A DNA stretch of 54,515 bases from a virus. The notes below the pieces were generated by a model that was not told the DNA's origin, searched no databases, and saw only the letters and a list, made by a program, of their open reading frames with translations. The translations under genes were made by a program, and so were the position numbers. Positions 28,468 to 53,510 of this stretch are shown here, piece after piece (positions within the stretch are counted from its first letter, which is position 1; each line of letters opens with the position of its first letter). The stretch lies in IMG/VR virus record IMGVR_UViG_3300003691_000001, positions 64,001 to 118,515 of that record, one strand, 5' to 3'.

Positions 28468-28496
28468 ATACTATAGTATGATCCGTGATCTGTCAA
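28468..28496 (-). promoter_or_regulatory. Sigma70 promoter for phoH and the HslV-like gene
   Basis: TTGACA (28491-28496), 17-bp spacer, TAGTAT (28468-28473); an alternative -10 is TATAGT. The leader carries an imperfect GGGGGTAA/TTATTCCCC stem before the AGGAG ribosome site. Confidence 0.8.
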
Positions 28497-28525
28497 CACT
28501 TTATTTACTGACTCCTGTGTAGCCC

Positions 28526-29853: not shown

Positions 29854-29899
29854 ATTACCTCCTTACCAAATTAATGGTGTATTTAATATAATAATAAGT

Positions 29900-30060
29900 G
29901 TTGACATTTTCCGATTACTATGTTACCCTCTACTAACTAATAGATTATATAGTACTTTAACCTTAGTGTCAATGATTTATTTAATCTTTCTTTTGTAATA
30001 TACATCGCTTCACTCTTACGAGCGAAGCGAGTAAGGGTGTAGGGATGTATATTATTTTCT
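29900..30060 (+). ncRNA. Candidate RNA element, copy A: TTGACA...CTATGTTACCCT plus long stem-loop and T-run
   Basis: Rightward, opposite to all genes. TTGACA at about 29900-29905 is followed by CTATGTTACCCT, and at 29997-30053 a long imperfect stem (AATATACAT..ATGTATATT outside; CTTAC GAGCGAAGCGA GTAAG at the tip) is followed by ATTTTCTTTGTCTTTT. The tip holds GCGAAGC, a very stable mini-hairpin. The same layout recurs at 53.28-53.41 kb on the other strand. Transcription is inferred. Confidence 0.5.
29944..29972 (-). promoter_or_regulatory. Perfect-consensus sigma70 promoter
   Basis: TTGACA (29967-29972), exactly 17 bp, TATAAT (29944-29949), reading leftward to the small-gene operon starting at 29853. 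It lies inside RNA element copy A on the other strand, so the two could interfere. Confidence 0.93.
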
Positions 30061-30127
30061 TTGTCTTTTATGATGGGTATGCTACGTAGTAGGATACACA
30101 GAGTAAAAGATTGTATACTGTACTATG

Positions 30128-34748: not shown

Positions 34749-34777
34749 ATATTACATGGCCGCTAACAACAGGTCAA
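34749..34777 (-). promoter_or_regulatory. Sigma70-like promoter for the membrane protein/NADAR/NAD operon
   Basis: TTGACC (34772-34777), 17-bp spacer, TAATAT (34749-34754). Places the transcription start just before the chosen start at 34717. Confidence 0.65.
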
Positions 34778-34790
34778 CACTTAATTTGAA

Positions 34791-45422: not shown

Positions 45423-45446
45423 CCGTGAAACATTCCGTGAAACATT
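45423..45446 (+). repeat. 12-bp perfect tandem repeat carrying parS half-sites
   Basis: Two copies of CCGTGAAACATT in direct tandem; CGTGAAACA is one arm of the parS palindrome found at 46.2, 47.6 and 48.3 kb. Confidence 0.65.
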
Positions 45447-46169: not shown

Positions 46170-46185
46170 TGTTTCACGTGGAACA
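46170..46185. promoter_or_regulatory. parS-like site (TGTTTCACGTGGAACA)
   Basis: One mismatch from a perfect palindromic parS; lies 24 bases downstream of the terminator of the 66-residue gene. Bacterial ParB consensus is TGTTNCACGTGAAACA. Confidence 0.75.
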
Positions 46186-46205: not shown

Positions 46206-46228
46206 AAAAAGCCCCAATTAAGGGGCTT
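46206..46228 (-). terminator. Intrinsic terminator AAGCCCCTTAATTGGGGCTT + T-run
   Basis: Downstream of the 66-residue gene. The 20-base stem-loop is identical to that at 49638-49657. Confidence 0.85.
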
Positions 46229-47573: not shown

Positions 47574-47589
47574 TGTTCCACGTGAAACA
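47574..47589. promoter_or_regulatory. parS site (TGTTCCACGTGAAACA)
   Basis: Exact match to TGTTNCACGTGAAACA, in a short intergenic gap between a terminator and the gene at 47615. Confidence 0.85.
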
Positions 47590-48298: not shown

Positions 48299-48314
48299 TG
48301 TTTCACGTGAAACA
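48299..48314. promoter_or_regulatory. Perfect parS site (TGTTTCACGTGAAACA)
   Basis: Exact palindromic ParB-binding consensus, in the leader of the 150-residue gene. Confidence 0.9.
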
Positions 48315-49636: not shown

Positions 49637-49657
49637 AAAGCCCCAATTAAGGGGCTT
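49637..49657 (-). terminator. Intrinsic terminator, same 20-base stem as at 46.2 kb
   Basis: AAGCCCCTTAATTGGGGCTT then TCTAGG on the minus strand, after the 189-residue gene. Confidence 0.75.
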
Positions 49658-52604: not shown

Positions 52605-52898
52605 TTAACCCTTCTTAGCATTAGATTTGGCTATGGGTGTGTATAAAACCCCATCGTGTAAGATGGCCTTAGCCTTTCTGTATCTGTGAAACTGGTTTCT
52701 ATACACAGCCCCTCCTAATAGTCTAGAAAGTGTTTCTATGCTTTCTCCTATTTTCCCCTCATGCTTTTCTATGAATTCCCCCATAGTAACCACATTTGAT
52801 ACCTGTACAGGCTCGACGGGTGTAGGTGTGGCTACCTCTGTTGACATTGTTAGAAGCTGTTGTGCTATCTCTAAAAGCTTTGTTTGTTTATTGTTCAT
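52605..52898 (-). CDS. Unknown protein
   Basis: 97 residues: helical start, Pro/Val-rich linker (ATPTPVEPVQVSNVV), basic end (YRNQFHRYRKAKAILHDGVL) that may bind nucleic acid. First gene from the promoter at 52932. Confidence 0.65.
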   Translation of the reverse strand: MNNKQTKLLEIAQQLLTMSTEVATPTPVEPVQVSNVVTMGEFIEKHEGKIGESIETLSRLLGGAVYRNQFHRYRKAKAILHDGVLYTPIAKSNAKKG

Positions 52899-52931
52899 AA
52901 CTTAACCCTGCTTATCTGTGAATGTGAGCAC

Positions 52932-52961
52932 ATTAGAGCATGTATCGGTTTAGTGTGTCAA
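52932..52961 (-). promoter_or_regulatory. Sigma70 promoter TTGACA-18-TCTAAT
   Basis: -35 52956-52961, -10 52932-52937, reading into the 97-residue gene and the genes to 51913. Confidence 0.78.
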
Positions 52962-53148
52962 CACTTAGCTACATAAATAAAAACGCGTAAACGGTTTATC
53001 GTTCTTTAATATCCCTTGCACTAGGACAACGTTTTAATAAAATCTTGATATGAAATATTCTATGTCCCTATTCATTCTAAACCCCCTGTAAGCCCTTGTA
53101 AGAGGTTTTACCTCCTACACTGGCATTGGTATTGGTTGACCCTATAAA

Positions 53149-53224
53149 ACCCTGTAAAGGGGATGTATAGCCTTGTAGACCTATATACAGCGCTATAGGA
53201 AGCGCTACAAGGTTTACAGGGTTG
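53149..53224. repeat. Nested inverted repeat AACCCTGTAAA / TTTACAGGGTT
   Basis: Outer 11-bp perfect arms enclose CCTTGT/ACAAGG and AGCGCT/AGCGCT palindromes. On the minus strand the right arm is followed by TTAT, weakly terminator-like. Confidence 0.7.
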
Positions 53225-53279
53225 TTGAAAGCTCTCAACCCTATCAAAGGTTAGTAAGGTTTATAAACAACACCCTATA

Positions 53280-53406
53280 TTCTTCTTTACTGTATACAAG
53301 CTTTACTCGTTACACTCGTAAACCTTATATACACTAAAGAAGAAAGACTACAATATAAAACCCTATATTAAAATCTTTAGGGTAACATAGAATTCAGTGT
53401 TGTCAA
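53280..53406 (-). ncRNA. Candidate RNA element, copy B (homologous to copy A at 29.9-30.06 kb)
   Basis: On the minus strand TTGACA (53401-53406), then CTATGTTACCCT, an AT-rich segment with CTTTCTTCTTT, and a long stem (TTCTTCTTTA/TAAAGAAGAA outer arms, 53280-53344) whose tip TTACGAGTGTAACGAGTAA matches copy A's TTACGAGCGAAGCGAGTAA at 16 of 19 positions. Opposite orientation in the genome. Transcription not shown. Confidence 0.5.
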
Positions 53407-53510
53407 GCACTAATTTCAAGGTTAATTAACCTTTCATTGATCTACATCATACAAACGGTTTAGGGATTAGGAACTCCCTTTTAAGGGTAGGTAGCGTTTA
53501 GCAACCCGAC

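Follow-up and report, generated by a model that had tools for sequence, protein, structure and literature searches.

Two promoter-hairpin units with a common tip as candidate small-RNA genes of a tailed phage

Two short units, A and B, lie 23 kb apart on opposite strands of a phage genome, each composed of a promoter-like motif and a long hairpin with a shared tip. We read them as short non-coding transcription units of the phage, i.e., small RNAs of a known kind without a known family, and consider this reading an even call. Other explanations, in which the hairpins act in cis on mRNAs, resemble each other by convergence or function as DNA, are weighed below where the evidence bears on them.

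The window analyzed here (54,515 bp) comprises bases 64,001-118,515 of an IMG/VR record of 118,515 bp. Its genes include those for the major head protein, portal, terminase, scaffolding protein, PhoH and NAD salvage, as well as 16 tRNA genes; the presence of head, portal, terminase and scaffolding genes identifies the record as a tailed phage. Gene direction is mostly rightward in the first half and leftward in the second. No near relative was detected among 50,697 phage records. Close kin were found neither by a megablast search of phage records with 24 kb of sequence, nor by tblastn with several proteins (the best, the head protein, was 41-52% identical to those of distant phages), nor by protein-guided IMG/VR scans with the neighboring NAMPT and lipoprotein-like genes. 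With its counterpart in Tunturiibacter phage Tunturi_4 the major head protein shares 41% identity, and with those of IMG/VR contigs at most 52%. To our knowledge, small RNAs of large phages have been little catalogued.

Results and Discussion

Two units of the same order

Common to A and B is TTGACA, followed after 10 or 11 bases by CTATGTTACCCT, with the hairpin downstream on the same strand (Table 1). Within the window, TTGACA-N14-20-TAYCCT has two occurrences against 0.22 expected, and the 12 bases of CTATGTTACCCT occur exactly twice across the 118,515-bp record, both times at this distance past TTGACA. The hairpins are imperfect stems of 24-27 bp, capped by TTACGAG-N-GNA-N'-CGAGTAA. This tip consensus is likewise found twice in the window (0.09 expected), and CGAGNGNANCGAG has no occurrence elsewhere in the 118.5 kb record. 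That motif, hairpin and tip occur twice together, each time on one strand and in one order, is not due to chance. Thus, two hairpin copies with a common upstream motif on opposite strands, as proposed in the original prediction, were indeed recovered, with motif and tip confined to these two spots within the record. Both copies also proved to be in non-coding gaps, of 313 and 612 bp, with no ORF of at least 60 aa. No further copies were detected in the record; long conserved copies are absent, so the units are not a dispersed repeat or mobile element.

The computed folding energy was -32.4 kcal/mol for hairpin A (z -7.75) and -31.4 kcal/mol for hairpin B (z -7.87), and in each case 0 of 200 shuffles equaled it. 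No other inverted repeat in the record scores as high as these two hairpins, which take places five and six when 47,378 70-nt windows from both strands are ranked by folding energy.

Table 1. Positions in the window of the features of units A and B and of related sites
Feature	Position	Strand	Description
Copy A, whole	29895-30070	+	
Promoter A	29895-29929	+	TAAGTG-TTGACA, 17 nt, TACCCT, preceded by TGT (extended -10)
RNA A, 5' region (putative)	29936-29995	+	About 60 nt, AU-rich, CTTTCTT at 29986-29992
Hairpin A	29996-30054	+	Imperfect 24-bp stem, CGAG/CGAG tandem G.A, two G-C pairs, GAA triloop
Tip A	30016-30034	+	TTACGAGCGAAGCGAGTAA, matches tip consensus
U-rich run	30055-30069	+	TTTTCTTTGTCTTTT, directly 3' of hairpin A, intrinsic-terminator-like
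Opposing promoter	29944-29972	-	Consensus sigma70, TTGACA-17-TATAAT, 12/12 matches, between promoter A and hairpin A
Copy B, whole	53411-53280	-	
Promoter B	53379-53411	-	AGTGC-TTGACA, 16 nt, TACCCT, TGT extended -10
Promoter-hairpin interval B	53345-53378	-	Putative start near 53372
Hairpin B	53280-53344	-	Imperfect 27-bp stem, CGAG/CGAG tandem G.A, GUA triloop
Tip B	53303-53321	-	TTACGAGTGTAACGAGTAA, matches tip consensus
Stretch after hairpin B	52899-53279	-	Non-coding, about 380 nt, further inverted repeats
Separate promoter-like site	52967-52956	-	TAAGTGTTGACA, ahead of gene starting at 52898
Extended -35 context	28491-28501 (-), 29895-29905 (+), 34773-34783 (-), 52957-52967 (-)		(T)AAGTGTTGAC(A), non-coding gaps

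A putative promoter form shared by both units

The 5' motif of A and B reads as a sigma70 promoter with TTGACA and a TGn extended -10. The element TGTTACCCT is identical in the two copies and fits TGn-TANNNT at a spacing of 16/17 from TTGACA, a combination that by established rules is a predicted extended -10 promoter. As judged by sequence, each copy therefore has its own upstream promoter on the same strand (TTGACA-N16/17-TACCCT with TGn). The -10 hexamer is weak, with TACCCT matching TATAAT at 3 of 6 positions.

The context of the -35 box is also recurrent. The 11-mer TAAGTGTTGAC recurs exactly at 29895, 34773 and 52957, in gaps, and in the 12.5 kb of gaps that were covered AAGTGTTGACA is additionally found at 28491. 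The minus-strand sites (28491, 34773 and 52957) precede genes, and the extended -35 context likely represents a promoter class of the phage that is read by the host. In IMG/VR, TTGACA-N9-13-CTATGTTACCCT was not commoner than a reversed control (22 stretches versus 19); 12 of the 22 loci (two independent families) are in ORF-free DNA versus 0 of 19 for the control. We take this pattern in IMG/VR as a probable promoter form rather than as homology.

Copy A as a probable small-RNA gene

Genes flank A on both sides and all are leftward, so that A faces minus-strand genes only. Because it lies inside a minus-strand gene block, its plus-strand promoter, hairpin and U-rich run serve no other unit. 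Judging from the spacing, transcription would start near 29936. Promoter, 60-nt leader, hairpin and U-run follow one another in this order, and A is likely a small-RNA gene of ~130 nt. The run TTTTCTTTGTCTTTT agrees with the terminator-like U-rich tail that had been noted after this copy, but the base of the stem, whose irregularities are one G.U, one G.G and one U.U, is almost all A-U, which is untypical for a terminator. Neither unit appears to be the terminator of a protein-coding operon: the T-run of A opposes the strand of the neighboring genes, and B has no T-run.

In the proposed mechanism, a sigma70-type RNA polymerase of the host would read each copy by means of the consensus -35 and the TGn extended -10. 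Behind its promoter, each unit would have a short leader and then a long and stable RNA hairpin, with tandem G.A pairs and a GNA triloop as the cap. At A, the hairpin and U-rich run would end transcription, yielding the ~130-nt RNA, in which a weakly structured 5' part of 60 nt (a possible pairing region) would be joined to a protective 3' hairpin. No complementarity of more than 14-16 nt to the rest of the phage was detected; as this length is not convincing, an antisense target within the phage was rejected. A small-peptide frame before hairpin A (ATG ATT TAT TTA ATC TTT CTT TTG TAA) was also discarded, as no ribosome-binding site is evident for it and B lacks an equivalent.

A known RNA of this general kind is 24B_1 of phage Phi24B, whose 80-nt precursor is a long hairpin (PMC10732415). 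Unit A and unit B resemble it as short non-coding phage transcripts with a long hairpin, here predicted from sequence alone; they differ from it in being two copies with a shared tip.

Predicted opposed promoters at A

The perfect consensus promoter on the minus strand at 29972-29944 likely drives an operon read leftward from 29853, in the direction of PhoH and the tRNA genes. The opposed start points expected from these elements nearly coincide (about 29936 and 29937). By these coordinates, each transcript would cross the promoter of the other and the polymerase footprints would overlap, and the two promoters should exclude each other. Binding at promoter A would block the perfect opposing promoter into this operon, and vice versa. 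We infer transcription, termination and promoter exclusion from these elements.

In bacterial bidirectional promoters, footprints on opposite strands overlap and one binding event should prevent the other, although in the promoters tested basal transcription was too low for competition (PMC12825309). The opposed promoters of A are similar in their overlapping footprints. They are not, however, one pseudo-symmetric element, since their -10 boxes are about 20 bp apart and their starts nearly coincident. No counterpart of the opposing promoter was seen in B. An alternative hairpin on the minus strand at 30030-30005 scores as terminator-like, and may therefore have a role for the leftward genes.

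Copy B and a possible role in cis

At B, promoter and hairpin share the direction of the genes, the next of which starts at 52898. The CTTTCTT of this copy (53346-53340) extends into the start of the hairpin, whose stem contains one G.U and two G.G, and no U-run or terminator-like tail follows. The stretch 53372-52899 folds with z -4.5. Close to the record's right end, promoter and hairpin of B would stand at the head of a transcript that runs leftward, and B may serve as a structured leader or be processed into a separate RNA. In the 612-bp gap, past hairpin B, we also observed nested inverted repeats at 53148-53223, with CCTTGTAG...CTACAAGG inside AACCCTGTAAA/TTTACAGGGTT.

The layout of B, with a structured leader of 380 nt ahead of genes in the same direction, speaks for a rival explanation, that the hairpins belong to mRNAs or promoters as cis elements (5' stabilizers, RNase III sites, or antitermination signals like put or nut) and that A and B are two sites for one factor. 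The PL and PR promoters of phage HK022 face apart. The put RNAs of this phage (putL and putR) are ~70 nt long with two stem-loops, and two copies downstream of opposite-strand promoters correspond to the putL/putR layout (PMC9378689). As in HK022, two related structured RNA elements are located downstream of promoters in one phage. Each copy here, however, has one long hairpin rather than two adjacent stem-loops in ~70 nt. Moreover, put is part of the leader of gene-bearing early operons, an arrangement that could apply to B but not to A, which opposes all genes nearby and has a U-rich run at its end, leaving nothing to stabilize or antiterminate. We regard a role in cis as rather unlikely.

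RNA versus DNA function

Along the promoter strand, the non-Watson-Crick positions of the two hairpins are three G.G, two G.U, four G.A and one U.U, and no C.C or A.C occurs. The reverse complements fold worse by 7.4 (A) and 11.6 (B) kcal/mol with RNA parameters. Because the mismatches are of the types tolerated in RNA and the promoter is on the same strand, RNA is favored over DNA; with two copies only, this is an indication and not proof. The original prediction had suggested RNA function and a small RNA family; the preference for RNA stands, and no homologues that would support the family turned up in IMG/VR, GTDB genomes or Rfam. It had offered, alternatively, a recognition element for recombination or replication, which gains no support, since the arms, expected to be conserved at such a site, are not.

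Nevertheless, a hairpin extruded from one DNA strand and serving replication, recombination or packaging was considered. The mini-hairpin d(GCGAAGC) is exceptionally stable as DNA, a property shared by GNA loops (PMC4686876), and this argues for a DNA-level element; GCGAAGC is contained in tip A and a GUA triloop in tip B, but here the cap closes a stem of 24-27 bp with tandem G.A, and the hairpin folds better on one strand. The end of the record is 1.1 kb from B, and the minimum of the cumulative GC skew is close by. Against such an element, the arm sequences are not conserved, the presence of G.U and G.G and absence of A.C and C.C fit RNA and not a cruciform, A lies 23 kb off at an ordinary operon boundary, and GC skew tracks gene direction. 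A DNA-level role is therefore highly improbable. A replication origin called from GC skew was rejected for the last of these reasons.

Relationship of A and B and occurrence of the tip

In the tip, CGAG is opposite CGAG (tandem G.A between C-G and G-C), followed by one variable pair and a GNA triloop. A scan of IMG/VR with the 19-base tip identified 26 loci, or 12 independent families. The inner N.N' pair was complementary in 10 of the 12 independent cases, compared with 21 of 57 in a scrambled control with G.A steps swapped to A.G (109 stretches, 57 independent; Fisher p = 0.004), and several of these tips sit on long stems that are otherwise unrelated. The CGAG-N-GNA-N'-CGAG tip may perhaps be a convergent stable cap. 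Being a recurrent hairpin cap in viral DNA, it is weaker as a mark of a family and, on its own, no ground for homology.

Outside motif and tip, the alignment of A and B between promoter and tip gave p = 0.04 against shuffles, and the 45 bases past the tip gave p = 0.70. The alignable compensatory differences are two tip pairs, C-G against U-A in both. Hence the observation that the arms differ and still pair was borne out, while the case for compensatory change is weak, as only these two pairs align confidently; the arms may pair because each was selected to, and not via compensation in one ancestral stem. A and B share promoter and cap, and are not proven paralogues over their full length. 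Promoter and tip jointly gave two chance-like matches each in IMG/VR and in GTDB genomes, and the tip motif was at control level in 20 distant relatives. Against Rfam, only tRNAs reached the gathering score in the window, and a permissive search of both loci gave no match on the elements.

These comparisons bear on the explanation by convergence, i.e., two like but independent promoters with unrelated hairpins, a generally favored stable cap and no common function. Alignment of the arms and spacers is weak at best, the cap is also carried by unrelated hairpins in other viral contigs, and mini-hairpins with a GNA loop, e.g., GCGAAGC, have exceptional stability as DNA (PMC4686876). This explanation does not readily accommodate the identity of the 12-base CTATGTTACCCT, nearly equally spaced from TTGACA in both copies, and of the seven-base tip arms, an identity confined to these two sites of the record; we consider convergence unlikely.

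A more far-reaching version of the small-RNA reading, which we also think unlikely, is that of a new phage RNA family with two small RNAs per genome, a dedicated promoter form, the CGAG-N-GNA-N'-CGAG tip for recognition and freely evolving arms. One of the RNAs would then belong to a switch of mutually exclusive promoters, the other side of which is the operon that leads leftward to PhoH and the tRNA array. If the two units are indeed small-RNA genes, arms that vary freely while promoter and tip are retained would suggest that the tip is read by a partner, either protein or RNA, and a phage operon would have a simple switch of overlapping promoters at its head.

Other viral contigs (L036, L038, L041, L044, L045 and L050) contain units of CTGCGCCCTTGACATTTTTT and then (T/G)CGAGCGAAGCGAG hairpins. 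In this contig family, a -35-like box is directly ahead of the same hairpin cap, and some members have tandem repeats.

Other features of the window

Three parS-like sites cluster within 2.1 kb, at 46170-46185, 47574-47589 and 48299-48314: a perfect 16-bp palindrome, TGTTTCACGTGAAACA, which is the consensus parS of chromosomes, and two copies with 15/16 matches. With up to 3 mismatches allowed, 0.25 matches were expected. ParB_N, HTH_ParB and AAA_31 (ParA) had no match in the whole 118.5 kb record, and the phage may recruit host ParB at this cluster. An exact repeat of about 21 bases, AAAGCCCCAATTAAGGGGCTT, at 46208-46228 and 49637-49657, is a terminator-like hairpin used twice. Finally, CCGTGAAACATT is present as two tandem copies at 45423-45446; it is similar to a parS half-site, and the long region around it has few ORFs and many GTGCA words.
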